NCBI GenBank assembly: GCA_020725625.1
Contig: DYET01000106.1
Coordinates: forward strand, 1-46,730
Length of the DNA: 46,730 nt
Source: Desulfovirgula sp.
Lineage (GTDB): Bacteria > Bacillota > Desulfotomaculia > Desulfotomaculales > Desulfocucumaceae
Direction of reading: 5' to 3'
Shown: one piece after another, positions 13,055-42,622 of the stretch
Position numbering within the stretch: the first letter of the stretch is position 1
Layout: each line of letters opens with the position of its first letter
Notes under the pieces: generated by a model
The model's database searches: none
What the model saw: only the letters and a program-made list of their open reading frames with translations
Told to the model about the DNA's origin: nothing
Made by a program: the position numbers and the translations under genes

Positions 13055-13137
13055 TGTTTTAAATTTTCCTGCCGGCTAAAAAACACTGCCAGGGAAAATA
13101 CAGTCGCCGGGATGGGAAACCGGCAGGTTGCTGAGAA

Positions 13138-13649: not shown

Positions 13650-13681
13650 AAAAAACCTGCTGTGATTTCAGCAGGTTTTTT
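13650..13681. terminator. Intrinsic terminator, symmetric A/T tracts (bidirectional-type)
   Basis: AAAAAACCTGCTG-TGATTT-CAGCAGGTTTTTT, just downstream of sspH. Confidence 0.88.
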
Positions 13682-13694
13682 GCTTAAACCGCTT

Positions 13695-13874: not shown

Positions 13875-14166
13875 GAGACATCCTCCTCTTCTTTGTCATC
13901 GGTACTATTTTTCCACGGATTACAAAGTCTAGCCGCAGAGAGCCCGGTTTTCTGCAACGGGCGTTTCAGGAAAAATACGGCGTTCGTCCAGGCAAGGCCT
14001 GTTTTAAACCGGCCCTTCCCGAAAAAAAATATGCAAATTTTTTCTTTATCCCCGGAAGGGTTTGGCCGCTTTATATAAAATCACTAGATCAATGTTGTAG
14101 GGCCGCCTAACGGAAACGGCCCTTCGACGGCCCACCCAAAATGTTATTATGAGGAGGTCAACCGGT

Positions 14167-23509: not shown

Positions 23510-23659
23510 AACAAACCCTCCTCGTTTTTTTAGCCTGGAGAAACACACAAGCCGCCCCTGCCGCGACTTGCGGGCCTTCATGAAAAGTACCATTTTTTAT
23601 TTTTTCCGACAAACGTGATCGTGCAGGTTATGCTATTTCCATCCAATCCCCCCTCCGTG

Positions 23660-25711: not shown

Positions 25712-27232
25712 CTATCTCCTGGGATACCACTGAAAGCGTCCTTCTCTGATTACTTCGCTCAGCGGCCTGATTGAGGAAATATGGCCGCCAATCCCGGCGT
25801 ACTTATGGCGCAGGATGGTGTATTCGACCGGAGCCACCACGGCCGGGGAGGTGGTGTAGGTAAACGGCTTTTCCACCATCTGTTCCACGTCGGCCAGAAA
25901 GGTAATCCCGCCGCCGGGCATCACGTAGGCCGGCGCGCCGGCTATGCTCAGCACCGCGTCGCCCCGGTGCACGGCCCGGGTAAGCTCAATGGGATTGACG
26001 GTCACCCCGGCCCGGGCGCTGCCGCCCACCCCGGCGTAGTACACGGCCGAAACCCGGGCCTCCTCACAGTTGGAGGCCAGCATCCGGCGAAGTTCCTCCA
26101 CCTCTTCGGGCAGGGGTGCCCGCACAGGCTCCCCGTCCGCATTGACCACGAACAGAGCCACATTGCGCCAGGTGGTCTCGGCCACCAGGATTTTCATGCC
26201 CGGCCTGGCGTAATTCATGTCTACGGACTTTATGGCCTGCCGGGGATCCTCGATGTTGGTGCCGCCCCAGCCGCTGCCGTGGTCGAAGAAATAGCGTCCC
26301 GGCGTGGCCGGCCGGCCCACCGGCTCGACGCCGCTATACGGAAGAAGCTCCGCTCCGGCTGGGTGGCGGGTCAAAAGTCCGGTAATGTGGTGGTCCAGGA
26401 TGATGGCCTCGTCCACCACCCCGGCCAGGAGGCCTGCAAAGAGGCCGCAGCAGGCTCCACCGCAGCCCACCCGCATTTTTTCGTCCAGGCTGCCGTTCAC
26501 CACCGGCGGCCTGCCCACCTGCAGGTCCAGGACGGATCCGCCGTCGATTTTGAGGCGGACGGGTTCCCGGTTGCCCAGTTCCACCATAGTCCTGACCACG
26601 GTCAGGCCGTGGGGGCCCTTCACCCGGTTGACGCCTCCCAGCAGCAGAACGTGGGACCCGTACTGCTCGGCGGTGACCATGCCCACCGCCTTTCCGTCCC
26701 TTTTGACCAGGGAACCCTCGTCACCTATATGCAGATTCGTGTCGATCTTTACAATCATGGAGCTATAGGAAATTGGCGCCTCCGTAACCACCGTGACCAC
26801 GTCGAAGTCCCCAACCCGGTCCTGGACAATGTACGGAGCCGGATGACAGTCGGGGTAGCTGGCGCCGGCCCCCACGGCGGTAATCAGCGGCCGGCTTAAA
26901 ACGGCCCTTTCCATGTCCGGGGGTAAGGGCTCCGGGATTTGCAGCGGCCTGTTGCGGACAAGATCCCCCCCGGTGTTGGTAAATCGCTTGCACGCACCGG
27001 TAAGGCCGGGCGGTATTTCACACCGGACGCCGCAAAAAGTGCAGGTCACGCTCCCGGGAACCGGTTCTCCCAGGGTCAGCGCCCCGGTCCTGCAGACCTT
27101 CAGGCAGGCCTGGCAGGCCGAGCAGCCGGCACCCGCCACAGCCTTTTTCCCCACCACCCTCACGGCGCCCAGTGGGCAGTTTTTTTCACATTCCCTGCAG
27201 CCGCTGCATTTCTCCGCATCAACCCTGATCAA
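25712..27232 (-). CDS. 6-hydroxynicotinate reductase-like iron-sulfur protein (Hnr family)
   Basis: N-terminal 2x[4Fe-4S] (CSGCRECEKNCPLGAV; CSACQACLKVCRTGAL), additional CTFCGVRCEIP, long C-terminal domain that I recognise as resembling Eubacterium barkeri Hnr. Recognised from memory. Confidence 0.62.
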   Translation of the reverse strand: MIRVDAEKCSGCRECEKNCPLGAVRVVGKKAVAGAGCSACQACLKVCRTGALTLGEPVPGSVTCTFCGVRCEIPPGLTGACKRFTNTGGDLVRNRPLQIPEPLPPDMERAVLSRPLITAVGAGASYPDCHPAPYIVQDRVGDFDVVTVVTEAPISYSSMIVKIDTNLHIGDEGSLVKRDGKAVGMVTAEQYGSHVLLLGGVNRVKGPHGLTVVRTMVELGNREPVRLKIDGGSVLDLQVGRPPVVNGSLDEKMRVGCGGACCGLFAGLLAGVVDEAIILDHHITGLLTRHPAGAELLPYSGVEPVGRPATPGRYFFDHGSGWGGTNIEDPRQAIKSVDMNYARPGMKILVAETTWRNVALFVVNADGEPVRAPLPEEVEELRRMLASNCEEARVSAVYYAGVGGSARAGVTVNPIELTRAVHRGDAVLSIAGAPAYVMPGGGITFLADVEQMVEKPFTYTTSPAVVAPVEYTILRHKYAGIGGHISSIRPLSEVIREGRFQWYPRR

Positions 27233-28190
27233 CCCGGTTTCCCTCCCGGCAGCTTACTGGGCCAAGGGCTTGCCCCGCCGGATCGGGCCGGGGAAAAAGC
27301 CCCGCCCGCCTTACGATTTCCGGCACCCTTTCCTCCAAGGCTATGGCCATAATGTGCACCCCGGCCACGCCCTTTACGTTCCTCATCCGGTCGATGGTCT
27401 CGACGCAGATTTTAACACCTTCTTCCTCGGGGTCCGGGGCCAGTTCCAGGCGCCTGACCACCTCCTCGGGAACAGTCACGCCCGGCACTCTTTCCTGCAT
27501 GAAGCGGGCGGCCCCGGCGGACCTGAGCAGGGAGACTCCGGCCAGGATGCCGACCTCCCGGTCCAGGCCGGCTTCCCTCACTCTTTCCATAAACCGGGAA
27601 AACCGTTCCAGGTCGAAAACGCACTGGGTCTGGACGAACCGGGCCCCCGCCCGGGCTTTTTTCTTAAGCTTGATTACCTGGAGGTCCACGGGGTCGGCAA
27701 AGGGATTGACCACCGCCCCGACATAGGCCTCCAGGGAAACCTCCATCTTCCGTCCCCCGGGGAACAGGCCGCGGGTCATGTCAGCCGCCAACCTTACCAA
27801 CTGCACCGAATCCAGGTCGAAAACGCTTTTGGCCTGGGGGTCGCTGCCGAAACGCTGGTGGTCGCCGGAAAGGCAAAGTATGTTGCGCACCCCCTGGGCC
27901 ACCGCCCCCAGGATGTCGCTCTGTATTGCAATCCGGTTCCGGTCCCGGCAGGTAACCTGGAAGACCGCGTCTATACCCATCCGGGCCAGTTCGCCGCAGC
28001 AGGCCTGGCTGGAAAGGCGGGCGACGGCGGACTGGTTGTCCGTGATATTGACGGCGTCCACATACCGGCGCAGCAATTCGGCCTTTTGCCGCAACGGCGC
28101 GAAGTCGGCAAACCTGGGCGGGCCCACCTCCGCAGTAACGGCGAAGTGCCCTGCTTCCAGCACTTTCCGGAGATTGCTAGGCTTAGACAA
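27219..28190 (-). CDS. metF: Methylenetetrahydrofolate reductase (MetF)
   Basis: FAVTAEVGPP...YVDAVNITDNQSAVARLSS...GVRNILCLSGDHQRFGS; follows metV. Confidence 0.87.
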   Translation of the reverse strand: MSKPSNLRKVLEAGHFAVTAEVGPPRFADFAPLRQKAELLRRYVDAVNITDNQSAVARLSSQACCGELARMGIDAVFQVTCRDRNRIAIQSDILGAVAQGVRNILCLSGDHQRFGSDPQAKSVFDLDSVQLVRLAADMTRGLFPGGRKMEVSLEAYVGAVVNPFADPVDLQVIKLKKKARAGARFVQTQCVFDLERFSRFMERVREAGLDREVGILAGVSLLRSAGAARFMQERVPGVTVPEEVVRRLELAPDPEEEGVKICVETIDRMRNVKGVAGVHIMAIALEERVPEIVRRAGLFPRPDPAGQALGPVSCREGNRVDQG

Positions 28191-28863
28191 TTGGCATGTC
28201 CTCCCTCTCCAGTCTTCTGGGCCCGCCCCAGTGCCCCCTGGACCAGTCTTTTGGCGGGCGGTATTCTTCCAGCAGGTTCAGTTCCCCCCGGGCGGCAAGC
28301 CGGTCGTAAATAATCTGCCAGGCGCAGTGATTTTCGGTGTTTGCCTCGCACCGGCCATTCCGGGACCCGCCGCAGGGGCCGTTCAGCAAACCCTTGGCGC
28401 AGCGGGTGATGGGGCATACCCCCGCGGTCTGGTCCAGCAGGCAGTCCCCGCAGCCCAGGCAAACCTCCTCCCAGAGGCCCTGCCTTACCGGCAAGCCCGA
28501 CCCCAGGGTATCCAGGCCGGGCAGAATCAGCTTTCCGGGCCGGAAAAGGCTGTAGCGCTGGACTCCCACGCCGCAGGCCAGGGAAAGCACCACCTGGAAG
28601 TGGGGCAGATCTGCGTCCAGGGTCTCCAGGAATTCGGGTTCACACTGGCGCTCCACCACCCGGGCCCGCACCTCTACCGGCCTTCCCTCCGCCTGCCTGT
28701 GCAGCCTTAAAACGGCTGCGGTCTCCTCGGCTTCCTTTAGCCCGCCTGACATGCACACCGTCACGCAGGACCCGCAGCCGGCGATGAGAATCCGGTCGTA
28801 TGGATCAAGCATTTCAAAGATCCGCTTAAGCGGTTTCCTCTGGCCGATGATCATCGGCTTCAC
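28183..28863 (-). CDS. metV: MetV-like methylenetetrahydrofolate reductase C-terminal domain protein
   Basis: MIIGQRKPLKRIFEMLDPYDRILIAGCGSCVTVCMSGG...C-terminal CLGCGDC..CPITRCAKGLLNGPCGG. Confidence 0.87.
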   Translation of the reverse strand: MKPMIIGQRKPLKRIFEMLDPYDRILIAGCGSCVTVCMSGGLKEAEETAAVLRLHRQAEGRPVEVRARVVERQCEPEFLETLDADLPHFQVVLSLACGVGVQRYSLFRPGKLILPGLDTLGSGLPVRQGLWEEVCLGCGDCLLDQTAGVCPITRCAKGLLNGPCGGSRNGRCEANTENHCAWQIIYDRLAARGELNLLEEYRPPKDWSRGHWGGPRRLEREDMPIV

Positions 28864-30520
28864 CTACCCTATTGTTCACTTCCAGGCCGTTTAAAAAGTT
28901 CCGGGTCACACCCGCCAGGTCAAGGGCCTCAAGGCCGGTCAGGCTGATATGGGCGATTACCTTATGGCTTAGCCCGGCTTCCTCCAGGATCCTCCCGGCC
29001 CGCCTGACCCTGTGGGGAGCCCAGGGATGATGGTGCCGGTACTTGCATTCCGGATTTTCCTCACTCCTGCAGCCGGCCAGCAGGATCCCGTCCACCCCCA
29101 GCTCCAGGATGCGGATCATCTGCACGGTCTCCACCCGGCCCGGGCAGGGCACCCTGACCAGCGCGGCGCTGTGAGCCAGGCCGCCGGGCAAAAATTTATC
29201 GTCGCAACGGTACGGGCCGGAAGCGCAGGTGATCACCAACACCCGCCGCTGCCCGGGGCTTAACTTTTTAACCGCCGGTTCCACCTGCCGGGACACCCAG
29301 TCGTACTGGGGGTCAGCCTGAAACCGCACCACGCGGGCCGGGCACAGCCCGGCGCACATGCCGCACTCGTCGCACCACTCATTCCCGAACTCCAGCCTGC
29401 CCTTTTCATTGATGAAGGGCAGGCGGTACGGGCAGTTGCGCAGGCAGGCCAGGCAGCGGGCGCACTCCCTCTCCATGCACCGGATGGGGTCGTCGGGGTG
29501 GCGGCGCTTGTACAGGCAACTGTTGCAGCAGACGCAGGTCCTGACCAGATCCGGGCGGCCGGCCTGGACTTTTTTCACCCACTTGTCGTCGGCCAGCAGC
29601 GGCCGGGCCATGGCCACCATGTCCACCCTGCCCTGCTCTATAACACTGGCGGCAAACTCCGGGTTGCCCAGCTTGCCCACGGCGATAACCGGCACGCCGA
29701 CGTGCCGCTTGATATCCTCGGCCAGGTACAGGTTGGGGCCGTCCTCGTACTCCACGGTTGGCTTGCCCCGGAGGTCGCTGTACCCCTTCAGGCCGCCGTC
29801 GTCGAAGCGCACCCCCACGGTGACGTCGATGCAGTCGACGCCCATTTTCTCCAGTTCCCCGGCGATAACCCGGCTTTGCTTGAGAGTGTTTCCGCCGATC
29901 ACAAACTCGTCGGCGCAAATACGGGCAAACAGCGTCACCTCCGGGCCCATCATCTCCCTGATGCCGTTGATTATTTCCCGATGGGCCTTCATCCGCCCGT
30001 ATACATCCCCGCCGTACTCGTCCAGTCTTTTGTTGGTGCGGCGGGAAAGGAGATCGGCCATGGTGTACGTATGGGCAAAGTGCAGCTCCACCACGTCGAA
30101 GCCTGCTTCGTAAGCCCGCCGTGCCCCCTCGATGAACTCCCGGATCATTTCCAGGATTACCCTTTTAGGCAGGTCTTCCGGCTTCAGCCCCACGCCGTGG
30201 ATGGAATGGGCAATCTGCAGCCCGGCGGCGGCGCCAGCCTCCTTGATTACCCGGGCCAGCCTGGCCAGGCCGGGAACGTGCAGGTCCGTGGAAATCTGGA
30301 GGCGGTTGCCGCCGTGGATGTAATAGCCGCTCACGCCGGTATGTTCCACCATGACCAGCCCCACCCCGGCAGCCGCCCTCTTCTGGTAATGCCTTAAGGT
30401 CCAGTCGGTGACGAACCCCCCCGGGGCGGCCGAGTTGGAAAAGGCCGGAGACATCATAATGCGGTTTTTCAGAACCAGCTTGTTAATCTTAATCGGCGTA
30501 AACAGCCCCACTTTTTCCAA
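28826..30520 (-). CDS. OYE-family FMN oxidoreductase fused to 4Fe-4S domain and MvhD-like domain
   Basis: OYE barrel (LFTPIKINKLVLKNRIMMSPAFSNSA...MADLLSRRTNKRLDEYGGDVYGRMK), then CARCLACLRNCP and CDECGMCAGLCP, then MvhD-like CASGPYRCDD...VPCPGRVETVQMIRILELGVDGILLAGC. Confidence 0.85.
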   Translation of the reverse strand: MEKVGLFTPIKINKLVLKNRIMMSPAFSNSAAPGGFVTDWTLRHYQKRAAAGVGLVMVEHTGVSGYYIHGGNRLQISTDLHVPGLARLARVIKEAGAAAGLQIAHSIHGVGLKPEDLPKRVILEMIREFIEGARRAYEAGFDVVELHFAHTYTMADLLSRRTNKRLDEYGGDVYGRMKAHREIINGIREMMGPEVTLFARICADEFVIGGNTLKQSRVIAGELEKMGVDCIDVTVGVRFDDGGLKGYSDLRGKPTVEYEDGPNLYLAEDIKRHVGVPVIAVGKLGNPEFAASVIEQGRVDMVAMARPLLADDKWVKKVQAGRPDLVRTCVCCNSCLYKRRHPDDPIRCMERECARCLACLRNCPYRLPFINEKGRLEFGNEWCDECGMCAGLCPARVVRFQADPQYDWVSRQVEPAVKKLSPGQRRVLVITCASGPYRCDDKFLPGGLAHSAALVRVPCPGRVETVQMIRILELGVDGILLAGCRSEENPECKYRHHHPWAPHRVRRAGRILEEAGLSHKVIAHISLTGLEALDLAGVTRNFLNGLEVNNRVGEADDHRPEETA

Positions 30521-30611: not shown

Positions 30612-31862
30612 TCAAATCAGGCCCCGCTTCTTGGCCCTCAGGATGGCCAAAATCCTTTCCTGCTCGTTGTACACCGTCATGACCCCCTCGTCCACGCCCA
30701 TTCCGGGCTTGCCGGCCATGGCGAAGGGCTGGGTGGCGACGGCCAGGTTGACGCATACCCGGGCCGACTTGTCGGTTTCGTTGCAGGTACCGCCCTGATA
30801 GGCCAGCACCCCGTTCCGCTTGCAGTAGAGCACCGCCTCCACGATGTTGGTGATACCGCCCAGGTCGATGGTCTTCACCTGGACCATGTCGGCCCCCTTG
30901 GCGTCGACCCAAACCCTGATCTCCTCCAGGGTGTTGGCGTACTCGTCGATGATCAGCTTCAGCCCTGACCCTGCTTCGTCAAGCCGGCGGCGCAGGTACT
31001 TCATCCCCTCCAGTTGGGCCTCACCGGTCTTCAGGTCAATGGGCATTTCAATAAAAACCTCGAAGGGAGAGCATACTTTCTCAACCTTGATCAGGTAGTC
31101 CACCACCCTGTCCAGGTCGTTGTTGAAGGCCTTGCCGATGCAGCCGTACACATCATACCGGAGGGTGGGCCGGTAATCCGGGGACCCGATGTCCAGGATG
31201 CGGTTTTTCACCCAAGCCGCGTACTCCAGGAAAATCTCGCCGTTTTTACCCAGCTTTTCCTCCACGTTGTTGATCAGGCCGTGGGGCATCATCCCCACCT
31301 GCTTGAGAATCATCTTGTCGACGTTGGTGTACCGATCGTCGCCGGACTGGGCGTTGATTTTCACCGGCTGCGGAACCAACTCAAGGCCGTACTCATCGGC
31401 CACCACCTCGGCCATGGTCAGCCGCCGCTCCCGGGCCACCGCCTCCAGGATAGCCTGGGTGACACCGTAGCGGATGGAGGCCGGCAGGTGCTCCCCGTTC
31501 ACCTCCAGGCGGTCAAACTCGCCGGCGTCCTTACGGAAACTGGTCAGGTCCCTCCCTTCCAGCCAAGGCACCACATCCCTTTCAATAATTTTGATCAGGT
31601 CCCCGGCCCTGACGGGGACCTCCCGGCCGCCGCTGGCTGCATACTGGGCGACCGCGCAGTCGCCGTAAACAACCTCGCCGCTCTCCATGACCAGGATTAC
31701 CGAAACGGCCTCGCCGGTCTGCCTGATTGTGCTGAATCCGGGAGTCAGTGGCCGGCCCCGGTAGATGAAACCGTCCTGCCTGGCGCCTTCCCTGATGGCT
31801 TCCTTGTCGTCCATGTAAAAGCCGGTCAGGCCGGCGGCGCACAGTACTCTCCTGACCTTCAT
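30612..31862 (-). CDS. mal: Methylaspartate ammonia-lyase
   Basis: KVRRVLCAAGLTGFYMDDKEAIREGARQDGF...INAQSGDDRYTNVDKMILK...HGLINNVEEKLG...YQGGTCNETDKSA...KPGMGVDEG, near full-length match to the remembered Clostridium MAL. Start at internal Met. Confidence 0.92.
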   Translation of the reverse strand: MKVRRVLCAAGLTGFYMDDKEAIREGARQDGFIYRGRPLTPGFSTIRQTGEAVSVILVMESGEVVYGDCAVAQYAASGGREVPVRAGDLIKIIERDVVPWLEGRDLTSFRKDAGEFDRLEVNGEHLPASIRYGVTQAILEAVARERRLTMAEVVADEYGLELVPQPVKINAQSGDDRYTNVDKMILKQVGMMPHGLINNVEEKLGKNGEIFLEYAAWVKNRILDIGSPDYRPTLRYDVYGCIGKAFNNDLDRVVDYLIKVEKVCSPFEVFIEMPIDLKTGEAQLEGMKYLRRRLDEAGSGLKLIIDEYANTLEEIRVWVDAKGADMVQVKTIDLGGITNIVEAVLYCKRNGVLAYQGGTCNETDKSARVCVNLAVATQPFAMAGKPGMGVDEGVMTVYNEQERILAILRAKKRGLI

Positions 31863-31934
31863 TTTTCTCCGATGCACCTCTGACTTTCTCTGTAAATTTG
31901 ACAAATGGTTTGAAATACCTTTGAGTAATTCTTG

Positions 31935-33281
31935 TTACGACACCCGCCGGCCGTCCCGGGCCACCAGCCGGCCTCCGATGAAGATGGCTTCCACCTTTGA
32001 GATTTCCGGGTAGGCGGTGATGATCACATCGGCGGTATAGCCTTTCTGCAGCAGGCCGAGGTTGGGTGCGATGCCGGGAATGGCCCCGGCTACATTTTTG
32101 GTCCCCAGGGCGACGGCTTCTGCCAGGCCGATGAGCTTCCGCTCCACCCCATGCTGCATGGCCTCCAGCATGGAATCGAAGCTGCCGGCGGCGAAATCGG
32201 TGGAAATGACATCGGCCAGGCCCTCCTTGAAGAAGGCGAACAGGTTGTCGGGAACGGTCACCAGCCGCTTGGCTCCGAAGGGGTCGTGCACGGCGGCATC
32301 GATAATCACCCCGGGGTACTGGCGCAGCTTTTTAGTGTTCTCCACCGCCTCCTCAGTGGTGAACAGGTAGTTGGAGTGAGCGGCGATGAGGCGCTGCACC
32401 CCCATTTGGGCCACCTCGTGGACCGTTTTCATGGAGGTGGGGGCGTTGTGGATGAGAAGGGGGACGTTGAGCTTTCTGGCCAGCTCCGCAGCCTCCCGGT
32501 ACGCTTCCAGGGCCACCTTCACCGAGGCCATGGTGGTCTGCAGGACGATTTCCCGGGTCTGCTCCGGGGTGAGAAAGCCGTCCAGACCGTGTTCTTTAAG
32601 GGCTTGGGCCACCCGGTCCCGGTCATAGTACGACTCTTCCATGTACCGGCCCAGCACCGATAGCTTCATGGCCCGGGCCTGCAAGTAGTCGATGTCGCGG
32701 CCGGTAGCCTTTTTCACCGCCCGGGGAATGTACAGGTAGTCCTGGCCACCCCCTCCCAGGGTGTGCCCGCCGCCCACCTCGCCGATACAGATGGCACCCT
32801 CCTCCAGCATTTTTTCCACTGTCATGGCTTGATGCTTTTCTTCCAGCCCGGCCCCGTCGCAGCGGAATGCCGCCTCAAAATTGACCGGGGTGTGGGTGGT
32901 GGCAGTTTTGATCCGTATGGGGTGAGCCTTTTGGGTCTCCCTGACCTCGTCCATGGTTGCGAAGCCGTCAACGTTCATCACCGTGGTGTGGCCCTGAAGC
33001 AGGTTCCTGTCCAGCAGTTCCATCACCCGCTGCCGCTCGTAGGGCTTCGCCCCGCTGGCAAACACCGGCCCGAAAACCACCCCGTGCTGGTGGTGGTTGA
33101 TCATGCCGGGCAAAATGGCCTTTCCGGCACAGTCAAAAACCTCGGCGGCGTAATTTTCCACCGACGGGTCAAGGCAGTCGGTCACCTCGGCAATCCGGTC
33201 GCCCTTGATGATCACCGAGGCCTTCTCCATTATCGTCTTCCCGTCCCCGGTTACGACGGTGCCGTTTTTCAGAAGCAGCAT
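31935..33281 (-). CDS. Amidohydrolase family protein (enamidase-like candidate)
   Basis: HxH metal motif GMINHHQHG; GEVGGGHTLGGGG; VISTDFAAGSFDSMLEAM; C-terminal KGYTADVIIT. Confidence 0.82.
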   Translation of the reverse strand: MLLLKNGTVVTGDGKTIMEKASVIIKGDRIAEVTDCLDPSVENYAAEVFDCAGKAILPGMINHHQHGVVFGPVFASGAKPYERQRVMELLDRNLLQGHTTVMNVDGFATMDEVRETQKAHPIRIKTATTHTPVNFEAAFRCDGAGLEEKHQAMTVEKMLEEGAICIGEVGGGHTLGGGGQDYLYIPRAVKKATGRDIDYLQARAMKLSVLGRYMEESYYDRDRVAQALKEHGLDGFLTPEQTREIVLQTTMASVKVALEAYREAAELARKLNVPLLIHNAPTSMKTVHEVAQMGVQRLIAAHSNYLFTTEEAVENTKKLRQYPGVIIDAAVHDPFGAKRLVTVPDNLFAFFKEGLADVISTDFAAGSFDSMLEAMQHGVERKLIGLAEAVALGTKNVAGAIPGIAPNLGLLQKGYTADVIITAYPEISKVEAIFIGGRLVARDGRRVS

Positions 33282-33314
33282 CTGTTATGAGCCTCCTTAG
33301 AAAATACCATGATT

Positions 33315-34112
33315 TTATCTTTCCGGACTGTTAATTCTCCACAGCTTCCGCTCCGCCGGCCCGTCATACTGGTGGTCGGCGGGGCTGATTATGCGCATGG
33401 GCTTCTGGGTGGTCATCTCCTCGTAAACGTGGGCGGTCAGGCCGGGTATCCTGGCAATAATGAACACGGCGTTGGCCAGTTCCACGGGAAAATCCATCTC
33501 GCACAGCAGTGCGGCGATGGCGCCGTCCACATTGATGGGCAGTTCCTTTCCGGTTTCCCGGGCAAAGGCCTCCTGAATGGCCTGGGCCATCTCCACGAAT
33601 TCACCCGCCACCCCTGCCTCCCGGGCTATGCTGAACAGCTTGGCGGTGCGGGGGTCGTTGGTGTGCACCCGGTGTCCGTATCCCGGCAGTTTCAGCCCCT
33701 TCTGGCGCCGGAATTTGACCAATGAGGCGGCCGCCTCGCCGGCAGTTAGCCCCCCGTCCCGCTTTTGTTCCACGGCCTCCTTCAGCACCTGCATGCAGTT
33801 CTCTATGGCCCCGCCATGATGCCTGTTGATGGAAAGCACCCCGGCAGCCAGGGAAGCGTTGAGGGAAGCCCCGGTGGAAGCCACCGTCCGGGCCGCCAGG
33901 GTTGAGGGCGGGGTGGCTCCATGATCGATGGAGGAAACAAGGATGGCGTTCAGCACCTGCGCCACCGCCGGCGGCGGCAGTTCGCCTTTGAGAATCAAAT
34001 AAACCACCTCGGCGAAAGACAGCCTGCCCATCAGCTCATCCAGCCGATAGCCGCGGATCAGCAGCTTGTTGGGCTCCACCTTGGTGATGGCGGTTTTCCA
34101 TTTTTCCGACAT
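33315..34112 (-). CDS. Citrate synthase superfamily, citryl-CoA lyase-like short form
   Basis: 265 aa; KTAITKVEPNKLLIRGYRLDELMGRLSFAEVVYLILKGELP...PGYGHRVHTNDPRT...NVDGAIAALL. Confidence 0.85.
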   Translation of the reverse strand: MSEKWKTAITKVEPNKLLIRGYRLDELMGRLSFAEVVYLILKGELPPPAVAQVLNAILVSSIDHGATPPSTLAARTVASTGASLNASLAAGVLSINRHHGGAIENCMQVLKEAVEQKRDGGLTAGEAAASLVKFRRQKGLKLPGYGHRVHTNDPRTAKLFSIAREAGVAGEFVEMAQAIQEAFARETGKELPINVDGAIAALLCEMDFPVELANAVFIIARIPGLTAHVYEEMTTQKPMRIISPADHQYDGPAERKLWRINSPER

Positions 34113-34158
34113 GACTTACACCTTCTCCTTAAAAATCAATTCCGTTAACGGCGTTATT

Positions 34159-35076
34159 TCATCCGGCCTTCCCCGCTTCCAGGTCCTCCATGACCGCCCC
34201 GGCGGCGGCCGGAATATCGCTGAACGCTTCAACCACCAGGGCTCCGGCGTCCCTCAGCGCCCGCACCTTGCCTTCATACGTGCCGAAGCCGCCCTCGATT
34301 ATTGCCCCGGCATGGGAAAAGCGGGTGCCGGACCTGGCGGCCCTGCCGCCGATGTAGGCTACCAGAGGCTTGGTGAACCCGCCGTTCCTAATCAGCCCGG
34401 CCACCTCTTCCTCCTGGTTGGTTCCGATTTCACCGAACAGCACCACCATCGCGGTCTCCTTATCGGCTTCAAATTCCCTCAGCACGTCGGCTTCCCGCAT
34501 GCCGATGATGGCGTCGCCGCCGACGTGAACGATGGTGCTCAGGCCAAGGCCGGCCTTGCACAGGTAGTATGAAATGGCCGAGGTCATGCCACCGCTCCTG
34601 GATATTACCCCCACATTGCCCGGCCGAAACCACTCCCTGGCCGCCTGGGCCCGCCCCCCAATCATGCCCAGAACAGCCTGGCCCGGGCTGATCAAACCCA
34701 GGGTATTGGGGCCGATAAAACGCGCCTTCTTCTCCCTGGCAAAGGCAGCAATTTCCATGACGTCATAAATGGGCACCCGGTCCGGCACCAGTACCGCCAG
34801 CTTTACCCCGGCGTCGAAGGCTTCCAGGGCGGCGTTCTTAACCAGCGGGGCGGGTACGAAAATTACGCTGACATCAATGTGGCCCCGATCTTCCCGGGCC
34901 TGAACCACTGAATCGTAGACCGGGATTCCGTGCACCTCGTCTCCCCGCCGGCCGGGGGTAACCCCGGCCACCACGTTGGTGCCGTAGTCCTTCATCAGCT
35001 TGGCCCGGGCCGACCCCTCCCGGCCGGTTATGCCCTGAATCAGAACCCGCTTGCTTGCATCTATCAAAATGGCCAT
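34159..35076 (-). CDS. Succinyl-CoA ligase alpha-like subunit (CoA-binding, phosphohistidine SHAGAII)
   Basis: RVLIQGITGREGSARAKLMKDYGTNVVAGVTPGRRG; GVISRSGG; FSHAGAIIEGG. Confidence 0.88.
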   Translation of the reverse strand: MAILIDASKRVLIQGITGREGSARAKLMKDYGTNVVAGVTPGRRGDEVHGIPVYDSVVQAREDRGHIDVSVIFVPAPLVKNAALEAFDAGVKLAVLVPDRVPIYDVMEIAAFAREKKARFIGPNTLGLISPGQAVLGMIGGRAQAAREWFRPGNVGVISRSGGMTSAISYYLCKAGLGLSTIVHVGGDAIIGMREADVLREFEADKETAMVVLFGEIGTNQEEEVAGLIRNGGFTKPLVAYIGGRAARSGTRFSHAGAIIEGGFGTYEGKVRALRDAGALVVEAFSDIPAAAGAVMEDLEAGKAG

Positions 35077-35093
35077 TTGAAGCCACCCCCGTC

Positions 35094-35360
35094 TTAGTCA
35101 ACTTGCGGCAGGGGAAGGGAAAAAGTCAGGCCCCCCTTGCCCCGGTAATGACACTCCAGTTCGCAGGCCAGGCACTCGATGCACTTCCCCCTGGCCACCT
35201 CCCCGGGTTCCATGGCCAGACTGGGCCGCCCGTCTTCTTCCTTGAGGACTTTTGGGGCACAGGCCGCAATGCAAGGTTTCTCCCGGCAATCCCGGCATTT
35301 TCCGGTATCCACGGTTACCTCACCGGTAAGGGTTTTAAACTTATACAACACGAATCTCAC
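35094..35360 (-). CDS. Small ferredoxin-type 4Fe-4S protein
   Basis: CRDCREKPCIAAC and CIECLACELECHYRGKGG; lies between the two CoA-ligase subunit genes. Confidence 0.82.
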   Translation of the reverse strand: MRFVLYKFKTLTGEVTVDTGKCRDCREKPCIAACAPKVLKEEDGRPSLAMEPGEVARGKCIECLACELECHYRGKGGLTFSLPLPQVD

Positions 35361-36597
35361 CAGCCCTTCCCGCCTTCTTTTTTTGCTCCTCGACCAGTGT
35401 TCTCAGCCGCTCCACGCAGTAATCCACACTGGTGTCCCGGCCATAGGCCTCTACCGGGGCAGGCAAGTCCCTGGTATACCTGGTAAGGATGTCTATGGCC
35501 AGTTCCTCCCCGTTACCGCCCACCCTGATGACCGCCGGGATGGAAAGGTTAACCTCGCGGAAAGCCTTCACCAGGCCCCGGGCAGTGTGATACTGCTCCT
35601 GGCTTGCCACTCCGGACCCCGAATAGAAATACCCTTCCAGGTTTGCCTGGGAAAGTATGATTTTGGCCGCCCGGTAAATCTTTGAGGCCGGCGGGTTGCC
35701 GCTGGTATCGACAAAATTGGGAATTTTGAATCCGCCGCGCTGGAGTGCGTCCATGGCCATCATCGACCCGCCCCCCCCGGCACCGTGAAACCCTATGTAC
35801 CCGCCGCCGCTGGTATCCATCTCCAACTGCATGAAATAGAATGTTCCGCGGTAGTCGCCGGCCTCAACCAGATAGGCGATCCGCTCAAGCTTTGTTGGGG
35901 GATGGTCGAATTCCCTGGCCACCTCGATACCGATCTCGGGATGGCGAAAAACGGCGTTGTCGTCAACGGTAATCCGGCCGTCCAGGGCGTAGAACCTTCC
36001 GTCCCTAGACAGGGCAACGGGGTTTATTTCGGCTGACCTGGCCTCATACTTCCGGGCCGTCCGGTAAAGTCTGACGAGCAAATCCGCCAGTCCGGGCAGT
36101 TCTCGGCTGGGAACGCCGAGGCGGATCAGCAGGTTTCTGGCCGTGAACTCCTGCAGACCAACCCTCACGTCGATGGGGTAAGAAATCATCTTGCCCGGAT
36201 GGCCCTTGGCCAGTTCCTCGATGCCGCTGCCCCCCATGGAACTAAATACCAGCATCGGCGCCCGGCTGGCGTCATTGACGATGATGCTGGCGAAATACTC
36301 CTTGACCACCTCTTTCCTTTCCTCGACCAGCACCTTCTCCACCCTGACCCCGTTGAAGGTCAGGCCGAACATTGTTTCGGCCGCCAGTTCGGCCTCGGCC
36401 GGAGTGTCGGCAAACTTTATTGCTCCCTTGTCGGCCCGCCCGGTTACCAGGGCCTGGGCCTTGACCACAACCGGGCAGCCCAGCCTCTCGGCCGCCTGCC
36501 TCGCCTGGCAGGCGTTGACTACCACCTCTCCCAGGCAGACGGGTATTCCCTCGGCCCTGAACAATTCCTTGCTCTGGTGTTCAAAAAGCTTCGTCAT
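35341..36597 (-). CDS. Succinyl-CoA ligase beta-like subunit (ATP-grasp)
   Basis: MTKLFEHQSKELFRAEGIPVCLGEVV...VVKAQALVTGRADKGAIKFADTPAEAE; divergent C-terminal half. Confidence 0.87.
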   Translation of the reverse strand: MTKLFEHQSKELFRAEGIPVCLGEVVVNACQARQAAERLGCPVVVKAQALVTGRADKGAIKFADTPAEAELAAETMFGLTFNGVRVEKVLVEERKEVVKEYFASIIVNDASRAPMLVFSSMGGSGIEELAKGHPGKMISYPIDVRVGLQEFTARNLLIRLGVPSRELPGLADLLVRLYRTARKYEARSAEINPVALSRDGRFYALDGRITVDDNAVFRHPEIGIEVAREFDHPPTKLERIAYLVEAGDYRGTFYFMQLEMDTSGGGYIGFHGAGGGGSMMAMDALQRGGFKIPNFVDTSGNPPASKIYRAAKIILSQANLEGYFYSGSGVASQEQYHTARGLVKAFREVNLSIPAVIRVGGNGEELAIDILTRYTRDLPAPVEAYGRDTSVDYCVERLRTLVEEQKKKAGRAGEIRVV

Positions 36598-36754
36598 AAT
36601 GCCTACCTCCCCCTGAAAGCTGCTGGCCGCCGGCAGACCTCAACATGACTGATTTTTGCAACGAATTTATTAAAATCAAATAGTTGTGTGTAAATTTTAA
36701 ACACGCGATCCCTTGCCGGAGTCGGTCAGGCCTTTTTTGTTTGATTTTTAAACA

Positions 36755-37612
36755 TTACAGTTCAACCGTCGCCCTGCGCGGGTCGAAACAGCACCCCACC
36801 CGAAGGGAGACAATGCGCACCCCGCTGGCCCTCTGGGGGCCTACCCTGACAAAGGAGGCCAGGGCCGTGGTTTTCCCCCCGAGGCCCAGGGGGCCGATCC
36901 CGGTCCGGTTAATCTCGGCGGTGATGTGCCGCTCCAGGGGGCTCTGCAGGGTAAAATCGCCGTTCTTCATGGCCTCCAGGGCCAGGGAGGCGGCCTCCAG
37001 GTTTGTCCGCCCGATGCCGAAAGCCGGCACGCAGGGCAGGCAGCCCAGCCTGGCCGCCCCTTCCGCAGCCCAGCGGACCATCTCGGCCAGCACCGCCTCC
37101 AAGGAGTGCTCGTGGAACACGCGCATCGTGCGGCCTCGGATTTCCGGCCCGCCGCCCAGCATCAGCACGGTGATTTTCAACCGGTCCCCGGGCATCCTCT
37201 TAATCTGGAACGGGGCAGGAACCAGGGCTCCGGGGTCTTCCGCCAGCCCTGCCGACTGCGTAATGCGCTGGGTTTCGTCACCCAGCACGGCCATGGGGCG
37301 GCCCGGAAGCCGCCGCAGGCCCCTGGCGATACCCTCCCCGACCGCCTCCAAAAAGCCCGCCGGCAGTTCAGCCCGGTCGCCCACCTCCAGGAAAACGTGG
37401 GGAACCCCGGTGTCGTCGCACAGGGGGACTTGCCTGTCGGCGGCCACCCTGAAATTTTCAAAAATCGCCTCAAGCACCCATCGGGCGCTGTCGCTGTCTT
37501 CGTTCCGGATGGCCTCCTGATAGCGCTGCTGCTGGTCCGGGCGCCAGGTGGTGCTGGCCCTGATCAGGGCTTCCTGCACCGCCTCAACAATCTGATTGAA
37601 GCTTACAGCCAT
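36755..37612 (-). CDS. Class I fumarase/tartrate dehydratase-type hydratase, alpha (N-terminal) subunit
   Basis: VPLCDDTGVPHVFLEVG...GCLPCVPAFGIGRTNLEAASLALEAMKNG. Confidence 0.9.
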   Translation of the reverse strand: MAVSFNQIVEAVQEALIRASTTWRPDQQQRYQEAIRNEDSDSARWVLEAIFENFRVAADRQVPLCDDTGVPHVFLEVGDRAELPAGFLEAVGEGIARGLRRLPGRPMAVLGDETQRITQSAGLAEDPGALVPAPFQIKRMPGDRLKITVLMLGGGPEIRGRTMRVFHEHSLEAVLAEMVRWAAEGAARLGCLPCVPAFGIGRTNLEAASLALEAMKNGDFTLQSPLERHITAEINRTGIGPLGLGGKTTALASFVRVGPQRASGVRIVSLRVGCCFDPRRATVEL

Positions 37613-38139
37613 CCCCGGTCACCTCCCCGGCCGGCCAAGTCAAAGACGGATTCCCCCCGGGCAATGGCAACTATGGCCGGAATACCCCTTACCTCCAGTT
37701 CGTACAGGGCCTCCATTCCTTCCTCGGGAAAGGCGGCTACCCGGCGGGAAACGATTTGGGATGAGAGCAGGGCGGTTACCGGCGGCGTGACGGCGAACAC
37801 CGAACCGTGATCCTTCAGGGCCGCCGCCGTTTCTCCGCTGAGACTGCCCTTGCCCAGGTGTATCTTGACCCCGGCAGCCGAAAGAACTGGTATGGAGGAT
37901 TCGATGTCCACCTTGTTGCTGGAAGTTGGCCCGATTCCGGCTGGGCTCACCGCAGTGTGAAAAACAACGCTTCCTTTAAGGTCAATGCCCAGTTCCGCCA
38001 GGCGGCTTTCCCGAATGTATTTGACCAGCTTGGGCAGAACCGCGTCCCGCCCGGCGAACACCTTCCCGCAAATAATGATTCTGTCGTAAATTTTCAGCCG
38101 GTCAATGTCGTCCTGAAGAAGCGGCGTTTCTAGTTTCAT
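37603..38139 (-). CDS. Class I fumarase/tartrate dehydratase-type hydratase, beta (C-terminal) subunit
   Basis: IIICGKVFAGRDAVLPKLVKYI...VVFHTAVSPAGIGPTSSNKVDIESSIPVLSAAGVKIHLGKGSLS. Confidence 0.9.
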   Translation of the reverse strand: MKLETPLLQDDIDRLKIYDRIIICGKVFAGRDAVLPKLVKYIRESRLAELGIDLKGSVVFHTAVSPAGIGPTSSNKVDIESSIPVLSAAGVKIHLGKGSLSGETAAALKDHGSVFAVTPPVTALLSSQIVSRRVAAFPEEGMEALYELEVRGIPAIVAIARGESVFDLAGRGGDRGWL

Positions 38140-38312: not shown

Positions 38313-40265
38313 TCATTTACGGCGCCTGCCGGCCTTCTTCGTCCCGGCATCGCCCTGCCTTTCCAGCTCCTTCAGCTTGCTCCACAGGTTGGACCGGCTG
38401 ATTCCCAGCATCTGGGCCAGGGTGGATTTGTCCCCGGCAAAACGCTGGCGCAGCTTCTCGATCAGCTGCAATTCCATTTCTTTGAGCGTGCCCGGGGTTA
38501 CCGCGAGAATACCCCCGGCCGGGTCTCCGGCACGGATTTCAAAGTGCTGAAGGTCCTGGTAAAGCTGGTCCAGCAAGTAAAAGACGTCGGTTTCATCCCG
38601 GGACAGGATGGAGAACTTTTCGGCGAAATTCTCCAGTTCCCTGACATTTCCCGGCCAATGGTACTTCTTCAGCCTGCTCATGAAAATATCGGGGATGTCC
38701 AGGATCCCTTCTTTTAAACCGTGCTTTTTCAGGAAATAATCCATAAGCTCCGGGATGTCCTCCTGGCGGTCCCTCAGCGGCGGAACCCTCAGGTTGAGCA
38801 CGTTCAGGCGGAAATAAAGGTCTTTCCGGAACTGCCCGGCCTTAACCTTTTGCGGAAGATCGGCGTTGGTGGCGGCTATAACCCTCACGTCCACCGGGAT
38901 AATCCTCTCCCCGCCAACGCGACGGATAACCTTTTCCTGAAGCACCCTAAGCAGCCGGGCCTGGGTGGACGGGGGGATTTCGGACACCTCGTCCAGAAAG
39001 ATAGTGCCGCTGTGGGCCAGATCGAAAAGTCCCGGCTTGCCGCCCTTTCTGGCTCCGGTGAAGGCCCCCTCGTCGTAGCCGAACAACTCGCTCTCCAGCA
39101 GGCTTTCGGGCAGGGTGGCGCAGTTGACTGCCACGAAAGGCCCCCGGGCCCGCAGGCTGGCATTGTGAATGCTGTTGGCAAAAACCTCCTTGCCGGTGCC
39201 GCTTTCACCGGTGATTAATATGGTGGAGTCGGACCTGCTGTAGCTTTTTGCCCTGGATATACATCCCTGGATGACCTGGGACCGGCCAACTATGTCGTTA
39301 AAGGTGTAGCGGGCCACCAGGCCCTTGGCGTAAAACTCCTTGCGGATTTTATCCTCCAGCACCTGGATTTTTTTCCGGTTCTCCAGGGTGACGGCGGCAC
39401 CGATACGCCTGGTGCCGCTGGTAAGGTAAAATTTTGCGGCCACCACCTGGTGCCGGCCGATCACTCCGACCCGGGATCCGCTGCTGCCGGCCATAACATC
39501 CCTTAAAAACGGCGCCTGGATCTCCTCGGCCTTTTTACCCTGCAGCGCGCCGGCATCCACGCCCAGCACCCGGGCGGCGGAGGCGTTGACGTGAGTGATT
39601 ACGCCTTCCCCGTTGAAGATAACAACACCTGTATTCAGGTGGTCCAGCACCGAGGTCAGGTGATCGGAGACATCCCGGTTGCGGTTGCGGACCTGCAGGA
39701 TATCCTCCGCCTGCTTAAAAGCGTTGTAGATGGCCTCTCTGGTGGAGTGCACCATGACTGTTTTCATTCCCAGGGCCCTGGCCATGTCCAGCACAAAGGC
39801 GCCGGTCGCCACCACCACGTCCTCCTTTTTGGCGCAGGCCTCAGCCACCTTTTCCTTGAGCTCCTTTTCATTCCTGTACTGGTAAATGGTCAGGGCCTCT
39901 TCGTTGAGGGCCAGGATTTGGCGAATGGCCTTGAAGTCGTAGTAGCCCTTGCTGTGTACGTAATGAAAATAAGACAGCTTGTCACCTATTCTCCTGGCCC
40001 GGTAGAGGGTGCGCAGGATATCGAAATTGGTAATCTCCACCAGGATTACAGGTATGGACACCGCCCTCTGGATAAGGGTCCCGGTGGCGCCCCTGCTGAT
40101 AATCAGGTCAAACCCGTCGGCCTCGTACTTCCTGGCCATGCGGACGGCCTCGTCGAAGACACAGACCTGAACTTCCACGTGGTATCCCTTTTGTTTGATG
40201 AGTTCATGGGCGGCCTCGGAAATTTCGGGATAGGCGGAGTAAATCACAGCAATCTTGTAAGGCAT
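38313..40265 (-). CDS. Sigma-54-dependent activator with PrpR N-terminal sensor, PAS, AAA+ and Fis HTH
   Basis: PrpR_N-like N terminus ([28 protein letters not shown]), AAA+ [14 protein letters not shown] loop, C-terminal [21 protein letters not shown]. Confidence 0.93.
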
Positions 40266-40449: not shown

Positions 40450-40683
40450 TTGGCCGCGGAAACTAATACAGTGCCCATTCCCCAGGGATTCCTGGAGATT
40501 AAAAAAAGCTGGTGCAAGGGGTGCAGCCTGTGTGCCGACGCCTGCCCGAAGGGATTGATCGCCGTTGATGAACTGGGGAAAGTATTCCTCAAAGACCCGG
40601 AAAACTGCCTGGGCTGCGGCCTGTGCGAGGCCATCTGCCCGGACTTTGCCATAAGGGTGGAAAAGAATGCGCAAACCAATTGA
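40450..40683 (+). CDS. korD: 2-oxoacid:ferredoxin oxidoreductase delta (ferredoxin) subunit
   Basis: CKGCSLCADACP and CLGCGLCEAICP; TTG start after GGGAGGGG. Confidence 0.88.
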   Translation: MAAETNTVPIPQGFLEIKKSWCKGCSLCADACPKGLIAVDELGKVFLKDPENCLGCGLCEAICPDFAIRVEKNAQTN

Positions 40684-41806
40684 AATACGGCTTATGCAGG
40701 GCAACGAGGCCTGCGCCCAGGCCGCCTTGGACGCCGGCGTACGCTTTTTTGCGGGCTACCCCATTACCCCCTCGACGGAGATAGCCGAATGGATGGCCAG
40801 GGAACTGCCCGCCCTGGGAGGTAAATTTATCCAGATGGAGGATGAAATAGCCAGCATATCAGCGGTCATAGGGGCTTCCCTGACCGGGGCCAAGGCCATG
40901 ACCGCCACCAGCGGCCCGGGTTTCTCCCTGATGCAGGAAAATATAGGGTACGCCTGCATGATTGAGATTCCCTGCCTCATCGTCAATGTTCAGCGCGGGG
41001 GCCCCAGCACCGGGCGTCCCACCGCGCCGGCCCAGGGCGACGTCATGCAGTCCCGCTGGGGCACCCACGGGGACCACCCGGCCATCGTGATCACCCCCTG
41101 GTCGGTGGACGAAACTTACTACCTGACCGTAAAGGCGGTCAACCTGGCTGAAAGGTTCCGGACGCCGGTGATCCTTCTGCTTGACGAGGTTATCGCCCAC
41201 CTGAGGGAAGACGTCAGGAAACCGGACCCCAGGAAGCTGAAGCTGCTGGAAAGGCCCAGGCCCTCCCGCGACCGCAACCGGTTCAGGCCCTTCGGGGGGG
41301 CGCTGGATGAAGTCCCCCCCATTGCCGACATCGGAATGGGGTACCGGTGCAATTACACCGGGCTGGTCCACGACGAGGCCGGCCATCCCAGCAACAGCCC
41401 TGAAGTAACCGATCAGCTGATCCGGCGGCTGGTGGGCAAGGTGGAAGCCCGCAGGGAAGAAATCGTCCACTGGGAAGAAACCTTCATGGAAGATGCCCAG
41501 GTGGTTGTTTTAGCCTACGGCTGCTCCGCCCGGTCGGCCATGCGGGCCGTAAAAACGGCCAGAACCCAGGGGCTCAGGGCGGGAATGATCAGGCCCACCA
41601 CGCTGTGGCCCTTCCCCGACAAGGCGGTAGAGAAAGCCGCCGCCATGGGCCTTCCCGTCCTGGTTCCGGAAATGAACCTCGGACAGATCGTCCTGGAGGT
41701 GGAGCGGCTGGCTGCCGGCCGGGTGCCGGTAAAAAGACTCTCACGGGTGGACGGCCAGCTGTTCACCCCGGACGAAATACTGGCCGCGCTGAAGGAGGGA
41801 TTTTAG
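40667..41806 (+). CDS. korA: 2-oxoacid:ferredoxin oxidoreductase alpha subunit (2-oxoglutarate type)
   Basis: LMQGNEACAQAALDAGVRFFAGYPITPSTEIAEWMARELP...TATSGPGFSLMQE...RGGPSTGRPT. Confidence 0.9.
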   Translation: MRKPIEIRLMQGNEACAQAALDAGVRFFAGYPITPSTEIAEWMARELPALGGKFIQMEDEIASISAVIGASLTGAKAMTATSGPGFSLMQENIGYACMIEIPCLIVNVQRGGPSTGRPTAPAQGDVMQSRWGTHGDHPAIVITPWSVDETYYLTVKAVNLAERFRTPVILLLDEVIAHLREDVRKPDPRKLKLLERPRPSRDRNRFRPFGGALDEVPPIADIGMGYRCNYTGLVHDEAGHPSNSPEVTDQLIRRLVGKVEARREEIVHWEETFMEDAQVVVLAYGCSARSAMRAVKTARTQGLRAGMIRPTTLWPFPDKAVEKAAAMGLPVLVPEMNLGQIVLEVERLAAGRVPVKRLSRVDGQLFTPDEILAALKEGF

Positions 41807-42622
41807 GTGCCTTCCGATATCATCCGGTACTTCAGGGAAGAAATGCTCCCCCACATCTGGTGCCCGGGCTGCGGGAACGGAATCGTCCTGCGCGATATCG
41901 CCGTGGCCCTGGAGAGGCTAAACCTTCCCCGGGACAAGGTGGTCATCGTGTCGGGAATTGGCTGTTCCTCCCGGGCCGCCACCTACCTGGACTTCGATAC
42001 GGTGCACACCACCCACGGCAGGGCCCTGCCCTTTGCCACCGGGATTAAAATGGCCAAGCCAGACCTGCACGTGTTTGTCATCATGGGGGACGGGGACGCC
42101 AGCGCCATCGGAGGCAATCACCTCATTCACGCCTGCCGCCGCAACATCGATCTGACGGCCATCGTGTTCAACAACAGTATATACGGCATGACCGGGGGAC
42201 AGTATTCCCCCTTGACCGCCATGGGCAAAAAGGCCACCACCGCCCCCTACGGGATGTTCGAGCCGTCCTTCGACATCTGCCGGGTGGCTGAAGCCTCCGG
42301 GGCAACCTTCGTGGGCAGGTCCACCACCTACCACAACCAGTTGCTCATCCGCCTCATCGTGGAGGGAGCCGAAAACAAGGGATTTTCCCTCATCGAGGCG
42401 GTGACCCACTGTCCCACGTCCTACGGGAGGCGCAACAAGCTGCCCGCCCCGTCGGACATGGTACGCTGGCAAAAGGAAAACGCCGTTTTGATTAACAAGA
42501 TCCGGGACGGAGCGGCACAGCTCAAAGAAGGGCAGTTCACCATCGGTGTGCTTCACCGGCACGAAGCCACGGAGTTTACCGAGGCGTACATGGAGGTGGT
42601 CAGACGTGCCCGCAAGCAGTAA
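41807..42622 (+). CDS. korB: 2-oxoacid:ferredoxin oxidoreductase beta (TPP) subunit
   Basis: WCPGCGNGIVLRDIA...GIGCSSRAATYLDFDTVHTTHGRALPFATGIK...GDGDASAIGGNHLIHACRRN. Confidence 0.92.
   Translation: MPSDIIRYFREEMLPHIWCPGCGNGIVLRDIAVALERLNLPRDKVVIVSGIGCSSRAATYLDFDTVHTTHGRALPFATGIKMAKPDLHVFVIMGDGDASAIGGNHLIHACRRNIDLTAIVFNNSIYGMTGGQYSPLTAMGKKATTAPYGMFEPSFDICRVAEASGATFVGRSTTYHNQLLIRLIVEGAENKGFSLIEAVTHCPTSYGRRNKLPAPSDMVRWQKENAVLINKIRDGAAQLKEGQFTIGVLHRHEATEFTEAYMEVVRRARKQ

Follow-up and report, generated by a model that had tools for sequence, protein, structure and literature searches.

A molybdenum-hydroxylase operon with a methylaspartate-ammonia-lyase-like enzyme in Desulfovirgula: a possible route for anaerobic quinolinate breakdown

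Gene content and distribution of the operon

We examined a stretch of 46,730 nucleotides from Desulfovirgula sp. (contig DYET01000106.1, assembly GCA_020725625.1; the whole stretch is hereafter called the window), in which a preliminary description had marked out positions 30612-38139 as holding a methylaspartate ammonia-lyase (MAL), a class I hydratase, a SucCD-like ligase and a protein resembling citryl-CoA lyase (Ccl). These genes are real, intact and co-directional, and their family scores lie far beyond chance. The interval carries intact open reading frames on the minus strand for FumB, FumA, LigB, LigA, Ccl, Amh and MAL, with intergenic gaps of -10 to 264 bases. The amidohydrolase Amh (31935-33281) had been passed over, as had the rest of the operon, which extends beyond that interval over 17755-38139 behind a perfect sigma-54 promoter. 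Past MAL, the same strand encodes an OYE-type ene-reductase with ferredoxin and FlpD domains, MetV, MetF, HNR (a protein of the 6-hydroxynicotinate reductase family), TctA, TctC, UPF0280 and, down to 17755, XdhABC. We consider it highly probable that this is a catabolic operon for an N-heterocycle, in which the MAL acts on something other than methylaspartate.

A scan for Amh across 84,980 species genomes returned ten further loci, bringing the number of cluster genomes to 11 in two phyla: Clostridiales PH28_bin88 (PH28), 'Ca. Formimonas warabiya' and Lutispora saccharofermentans in the Bacillota, and seven genomes in the Synergistota. One cluster came from a ruminant Synergistes. The recurring core consists of FumBA, Amh, MAL, HNR, UPF0280 and Xdh. 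Amh, MAL and HNR are neighbours in 10/10 loci and FumB-FumA in 9/10 (the tenth contig stops short), while UPF0280 and Xdh are present in all eight loci with sufficient contig, in PH28 partly from its genome.

Two loci carry additional genes. In Formimonas, genes for UbiD, an FrdA-like flavoprotein and a UbiX-like flavoprotein stand directly before FumBA (L025:4002-8199), and these genes perhaps channel a different carboxylated ring into the pathway. In PH28, two extra molybdenum-hydroxylase sets, an alpha/beta hydrolase and one gene of no assigned identity lie in or beside the operon (L011:800-6176 and 11261-14059), suggesting a wider substrate range.

The ammonia-lyase, the hydratase and the end module

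The MAL-like enzyme (430 residues; 30612..31904, minus strand) scores far above the methylaspartate ammonia-lyase equivalog cut-off (TIGR01502, 506 bits, cut-off 286; PF07476, 336 bits), and in our alignment the cluster MALs keep Q73, Q172, H194, D238, E273, D307, Q329, K331, Y356, T360 and C361 in 11/11 cases. N170, A384 and G385 are likewise present in 11/11 cluster MALs, at positions occupied by F170, L384 and A385 in 31/31 controls (that is, F170N, L384A and A385G). The controls were the C. tetanomorphum MAL and 30 MALs of the same phylum; the C. tetanomorphum row was pieced together only partly from a PDB alignment, and the 30 genome controls are independent of that row. It has been reported that F170, Y356 and L384 line the 3-methyl pocket of MAL and that L384A in CaMAL lowers kcat 1760-fold (PMC7241714). 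The cluster MALs also form one separate clade (100/100 support). Because F170N and L384A alter the 3-methyl pocket, the enzyme should act on an aspartate bearing a larger or polar 3-substituent; judged by this pocket, it is not a METHYLASPARTASE and not an ordinary methylaspartase. A strong equivalog score can therefore mislead once two pocket residues differ. C357Q was dropped as pocket evidence, as ordinary MALs vary at that position too.

The presence of MAL had earlier been taken to suggest that 3-methylaspartate is converted through mesaconate, citramalate and citramalyl-CoA to acetyl-CoA and pyruvate, an ATP-dependent alternative to citramalate lyase. Several observations fit such a route: the MAL equivalog score, the presence of a Ccl-like lyase, the established ability of class I fumarases to hydrate mesaconate, and the occurrence in other cluster genomes of CitF, to whose family citramalate lyase belongs. 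We nevertheless regard it as improbable. The 3-methyl pocket is rebuilt (F170N, L384A) in all 11 orthologues, and neither the host genome, 97% complete at 3.15 Mb, nor 6/8 other cluster genomes tested gave a match to glutamate mutase E (PF06368). The host holds a single MAL copy and none of the cluster genomes tested carries a second; together these points speak against the step from a MAL neighbour to mesaconate and citramalate. That assignment would also leave Xdh, HNR, Amh and OYE of the same operon without a role, and it is opposed by the citrate-type features of LigB and Ccl (the latter keeps three citrate-type arginines) and by an operon centred on HNR and a molybdenum hydroxylase. A glutamate-derived methylaspartate route was rejected on the missing glutamate mutase and the pocket residues.

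The hydratase consists of a diverged beta subunit, FumB (178 residues; 37603..38139, minus strand; PF05683, 76 bits; TIGR00723, 74 bits, cut-off 145), and an alpha subunit of the [4Fe-4S] type, FumA (285 residues; 36755..37612, minus strand; PF05681, 183 bits). In FumB, the motif GPTSSNK replaces GPTTSxRM in 10/10 orthologues, while the three putative cluster cysteines of FumA are retained in 5/5 orthologues checked. The pair thus lacks both the GPTTSxRM motif and the equivalog-level score of class I fumarases (PRK06246, 129 bits against a cut-off of 276). Because the FumB motif has changed while the FumA cysteines are kept, FumAB likely acts on a substrate other than fumarate.

Downstream of the hydratase lie the beta and alpha subunits of a coenzyme A (CoA) ligase and a lyase, all on the minus strand. 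LigB (418 residues; 35341..36597) is SucC/CcsA-like (SucC 3ufx, 207 bits; CcsA 6hxq, 140 bits), and LigA (305 residues; 34159..35076) is SucD-like (TIGR01019, 288 bits, cut-off 353) with the phospho-His motif SHAGA. Ccl (265 residues; 33315..34112; PRK06224, 295 bits, cut-off 212) has a short citrate-synthase (CS) fold; its closest solved relative is the H. thermophilus citryl-CoA lyase 6HXP (E=5e-65), and in the alignment it retains the CS-type histidines, the Asp and the three citrate-type Arg. LigB resembles CcsA, and differs from two SucC proteins, in having an SGNPPA loop, which reads GGNPPA in CcsA, as well as a PPT...DxRG insertion. A match of LigB to the Citrate_bind family PF16114 is marginal (27.4 bits in the window and 26.0 in PH28, cut-off 26.8). 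The operon thus holds the two components of two-step ATP-citrate cleavage, a SucCD-fold ligase with a citrate-type loop and a stand-alone CS-fold lyase. The CcsA-type features of LigB and the Ccl arginines suggest that a tricarboxylate is cleaved and a dicarboxylic 2-oxo acid released. The general chemistry of the preliminary description therefore survives: hydratase, ligase and lyase very probably form a 2-hydroxy-2-substituted succinate, activate it with CoA and split it to acetyl-CoA and a 2-oxo acid. The identity of that succinate as citramalate does not.

Among the 11 cluster genomes, LigA, LigB and Ccl were found only in the window and PH28, and this confinement would make the ligase and lyase an exchangeable end module, with the core as a pathway of its own. 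CitF scores above its cut-off in 6/7 cluster genomes without LigAB/Ccl, twice beside the cluster (with CitE); in the genomes that have LigAB/Ccl, CitF is absent from PH28 and the host shows only one 28-bit partial match. The Formimonas CitD, CitE and CitF genes follow OYE closely on its downstream side, separated from it by one short gene, and in a Synergistales metagenome-assembled genome (MAG) CitE and CitF come after apparent molybdenum-hydroxylase maturation genes. The Formimonas CitD and CitF pass the NCBIfam equivalog cut-offs and CitE falls below. A Formimonas locus (L076) has two tandem CitEF sets downstream of the cluster, with CitD in the first. The pattern over nine genomes is suggestive, if not proof, that LigAB with Ccl and CitDEF are alternative cleavers of one 2-hydroxy-2-substituted succinate. 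The earlier idea of an alternative to citramalate lyase is to this extent upheld, with the CitF alternation as evidence for a replacement of a citrate/citramalate-lyase-type enzyme; the naming of citramalate as the substrate is not supported.

The same features could also serve a route one carbon shorter, in which a pyrrole-2,3-dicarboxylate-type substrate would yield 3-(carboxymethyl)aspartate, aconitate and citrate, and citryl-CoA synthetase and lyase would release acetyl-CoA and oxaloacetate. Ccl is nearest to a genuine citryl-CoA lyase, LigB has its CcsA features, and the Formimonas CitF and CitD have citrate-lyase-level scores, though CitE is under its cut-off. We think this route very improbable, as HNR falls by synteny into the pyridine (6-hydroxynicotinate) reductase family and the adjoining KorABC is better suited to 2-oxoglutarate. 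KorA, KorB and KorC (40667..43202, plus strand; PRK08659, 561 bits, cut-off 411; PRK09628, 286 bits, cut-off 364) make up a 2-oxoacid:ferredoxin oxidoreductase encoded divergently on the far side of the regulator gene; the top match of the beta subunit is of the 2-oxoglutarate type, and KorABC is also found near the Formimonas cluster.

Ring-processing genes and nicotinate-type loci

HNR (25712..27232, minus strand) is an Fe-S protein that shares 46-57% identity with its homologues in 12 loci linked to enamidase and 36% with the one in a thirteenth. HNR homologues occurred in 15/399 genomes of the phylum. All 13 loci read out from this search have an enamidase homologue beside HNR, in most cases together with several of the genes Hgd, Hmd, Mgm, Mii, DmdA and Dml; at one of them the enamidase (2VUN, E=2e-169), dehydrogenase (3CKY, 8e-97) and isomerase (3G7K, 7e-150) were matched to solved structures. 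We take these nicotinate-type loci to represent the Eubacterium barkeri nicotinate gene set. MAL, FumA, FumB, Ccl and Lig were found in 0/13 of them and, reciprocally, a search of the window, of the other MAL-type loci and of flanks detected no nicotinate marker (enamidase, Hgd, Hmd, Mgm, Mii, Dmd or Dml) at E<=1e-10. The two gene sets are therefore mutually exclusive, yet HNR, UPF0280 and a molybdenum hydroxylase are common to both.

In both the host and PH28, HNR occurs a second time, in a locus of the enamidase type. The host's locus, on contig C45 (L115; HNR at 7089-8639), includes enamidase, molybdenum-hydroxylase subunits, an aldehyde dehydrogenase and a UbiD/UbiX pair, and probably encodes a nicotinate pathway, in which an unusual branch possibly follows further down.

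Since its homologues sit in nicotinate-type loci, a 6-hydroxypyridine carboxylate is very probably the substrate of the window's HNR. Moreover, because the gene sets exclude each other while sharing HNR, UPF0280 and the molybdenum hydroxylase, and because the host and PH28 have a separate enamidase-type locus, the operon most likely handles a pyridine carboxylate other than nicotinate. Nicotinate itself was rejected as the substrate: it is without the 2-carboxylate that MAL requires, the nicotinate genes are missing from the MAL loci, and the host has its separate locus on C45. A structural model of HNR reached a predicted local distance difference test (pLDDT) score of 89, and a fold search with it gave no PDB match at E<=0.001 beyond the ferredoxin part, so that the catalytic region is possibly a fold unrepresented in the PDB.

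UPF0280 (21492..22388, minus strand; PRK04334, 231 bits) lies near HNR in 11/13 nicotinate-type loci and in all MAL-type loci with a long enough contig. As the two travel together in both pathway types, UPF0280 could serve to mature HNR or to attach its cofactor. The molybdenum hydroxylase comprises XdhA, the molybdenum-binding subunit (19166..21490; PF02738, PF20256), XdhB, the flavin adenine dinucleotide subunit (18276..19169; PF00941, PF03450), and XdhC, the [2Fe-2S] subunit (17755..18279; PF01799, PF00111), all on the minus strand.

The OYE-type flavin ene-reductase (28826..30520, minus strand; PF00724, 174 bits; PF02662, 52 bits) has counterparts close to the cluster in at least seven other genomes, and no clear homologue in the 13 nicotinate-type loci, where one weak 73-residue match was seen. 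A MetV-like protein (28183..28863, minus strand; PF12225, 114 bits) is its probable electron-transfer partner, and a MetF-like flavoprotein follows (27219..28190, minus strand; PF02219, 143 bits). The three genes overlap (27219-30520) in a form seen only in the window and PH28, and their products are possibly a multi-flavin electron-transfer complex for ring reduction.

Amh (31935..33281, minus strand; PF01979, 32.5 bits) has H64xH66, E168, H278, H302 and D362 invariant across 18 sequences, and its model has an amidohydrolase fold (pLDDT 92). A fold search returned generic amidohydrolases only (dihydroorotase, isoaspartyl dipeptidase, triazine hydrolase), a result too unspecific for naming the substrate. 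Assignment as an enamidase was rejected: no PDB enamidase matched at E<=0.01, and identity to an enamidase homologue was 31% over only 108 residues. Other relatives of Amh at 38-45% (L003-L010, L013-L023) sit in unrelated neighbourhoods. Three of these (L015, L018 and L021; ~38-42%) adjoin octopine/opine-dehydrogenase-like genes, and L021 and L022 additionally contain genes for ABC transporters of the branched-chain amino-acid type.

A possible quinolinate route and its relation to known systems

MAL chemistry requires a substrate of the form HOOC-CH(NH2)-CH(R)-COOH. By chemical reasoning that presupposes C6 hydroxylation, full ring reduction and lactam hydrolysis, the 2,3-acid alone among the pyridine dicarboxylates would yield it (R = CH2CH2COOH), and because only that pattern gives the aspartate unit for MAL we propose a 2,3-dicarboxylate as the substrate. 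In the pathway we envisage, Xdh would hydroxylate quinolinate at C6 to 6-hydroxyquinolinate and HNR would reduce this to the 1,4,5,6-tetrahydro-6-oxo compound. OYE, with MetV/MetF, would then reduce the remaining C2=C3 bond to give the saturated lactam; we assign it to this second ring reduction because the route needs one reduction beyond that of nicotinate and OYE is the extra gene found. Amh would open the resulting 6-oxopiperidine-2,3-dicarboxylate to 3-(2-carboxyethyl)aspartate, from which the MAL-like enzyme would take off ammonia to leave homoaconitate. FumAB would hydrate homoaconitate to homocitrate, LigAB would convert this with a nucleotide triphosphate to homocitryl-CoA, and Ccl would cleave the latter to acetyl-CoA and 2-oxoglutarate. 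Finally, KorABC would turn 2-oxoglutarate into succinyl-CoA and reduced ferredoxin, which HNR could use. Degree-of-reduction bookkeeping closes with KorABC included (quinolinate 22 = acetate 8 + succinate 14 + CO2 0 + NH3), making the route redox-neutral, and the elements balance as well. 6-Hydroxyquinolinate has been reported as a metabolite of bacteria (PMC6644310).

We regard the chances as about even that the operon serves to break down a pyridine-2,3-dicarboxylate anaerobically by this specific route, with quinolinate as the most likely starting compound; every substrate and activity in it is predicted from gene content and chemistry. Several points weigh against it. PH28 and one Synergistaceae MAG carry glutamate mutase E (L128, L129), with MAL not adjoining, and may thus use 3-methylaspartate. 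A new Arg or Lys that would face the MAL pocket and receive the extra carboxylate is at most a candidate (H236R). LigB is overall nearer to SucC than to CcsA, and Lutispora holds the core yet neither CitF nor LigAB/Ccl. Neither MetV/MetF of the window nor UbiD/UbiX of Formimonas could be given a pathway step of its own, and the regiochemistry of both hydration and cleavage is deduced.

Hydration in the reverse sense would give homoisocitrate, whose CoA ester would be split to glyoxylate and glutaryl-CoA. The upstream enzymes would be accounted for equally well, and sequence cannot reveal hydration regiochemistry. CS-fold lyases, however, free an acyl-CoA enolate from a tertiary alcohol, that of acetyl-CoA or propionyl-CoA in the known members, and KorABC would be left without an obvious role, so we find this variant very unlikely. 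A different 2,3-dicarboxylated N-heterocycle, such as a substituted quinolinate or a 5-substituted orotate, could follow the same logic to another 2-oxo acid, and the two further molybdenum-hydroxylase sets of PH28 and the UbiD/UbiX genes by the Formimonas cluster hint that the funnel may be wider. This alternative we judge unlikely, but less so, as among the natural compounds of this class quinolinate is the common one, and most genomes conserve the core and have no such extras.

The sigma-54 -24/-12 promoter TGGCACGATTATTGCT (38225-38210, minus strand) matches the pattern TGGCACRNNNNTTGCW perfectly ~71 bp before FumB; it is the sole site in the window at <=1 mismatch (0.83 expected by chance) and lies in the 173-bp gap between the regulator gene and FumB. 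That gene, Reg (38313..40265, minus strand; PF06506, PF00158 and TIGR02329 matches), encodes a PrpR_N/PAS/AAA+/Fis sigma-54 activator and precedes FumB, as such a gene also does in loci L024 and L026. The PrpR-type activator likely regulates the operon. TctA, the large subunit of a tripartite tricarboxylate transporter (23660..25636, minus strand; PF01970, 405 bits), and TctC, a solute-binding protein (22502..23593, minus strand; PF03401, 59 bits), are encoded between HNR and UPF0280.

Quinolinate is the universal precursor of nicotinamide adenine dinucleotide (NAD) and a neuroactive tryptophan metabolite and neurotoxin. A 'quinolinic acid degradation' function has been scored in published gut-microbiome studies, a score that reportedly rests on NAD-synthesis genes. 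A search of the open-access literature yielded nothing relevant on quinolinate pathways, homocitrate lyase or homocitryl-CoA and no gene set for anaerobic quinolinate breakdown, and none is known to have been described; within the literature searched, the pathway seems new. At slightly under even odds, quinolinate would here be converted anaerobically to acetyl-CoA and 2-oxoglutarate by a new route, in which homoaconitate and homocitrate, intermediates of the lysine-biosynthesis type, are used catabolically and four new activities take part. If true, these would be a 3-(2-carboxyethyl)aspartate ammonia-lyase, an Fe-S fumarase-family homoaconitate hydratase, a homocitrate-CoA ligase and a homocitryl-CoA lyase, the role of the last being taken elsewhere by a CitDEF-type homocitrate lyase. 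The case makes defined new enzyme activities directly testable.

Four known systems come closest to the operon or to parts of it. Compared with the MAL of glutamate fermentation, the cluster enzymes retain the fold and the metal and catalytic residues (K331, H194, Q329, Q172, T360, C361, D238, E273, D307) but have an altered 3-methyl pocket, form their own clade and occur in genomes mostly without glutamate mutase. The proposed two-step end, nucleotide-dependent CoA activation followed by CS-fold cleavage, resembles Hydrogenobacter CcsAB and Ccl, with the LigB loop and insertion as in CcsA and Ccl aligning over its full length with 6HXP. It differs in that LigB scores better to SucC and that the catabolic operon points to homocitrate rather than to the reverse tricarboxylic acid cycle. 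Citrate/citramalate lyase (CitDEF) probably carries out this last cleavage in the sister clusters of Formimonas and a Synergistales MAG, but is an acyl-carrier-protein complex unrelated to LigAB and Ccl. Nicotinate fermentation in E. barkeri has several elements in common with the operon: a molybdenum hydroxylase, the HNR family with UPF0280, ring opening by an amidohydrolase, a hydratase and a terminal C-C cleavage. In contrast to that pathway, Amh is only distantly related to enamidase and a reduction by OYE is added; ammonia would leave by MAL-type elimination, where E. barkeri employs aldehyde reduction, dehydration and a B12 mutase; and a fumarase-type hydratase stands in place of DmdAB, and a CoA ligase with a CS-fold lyase in place of dimethylmalate lyase.

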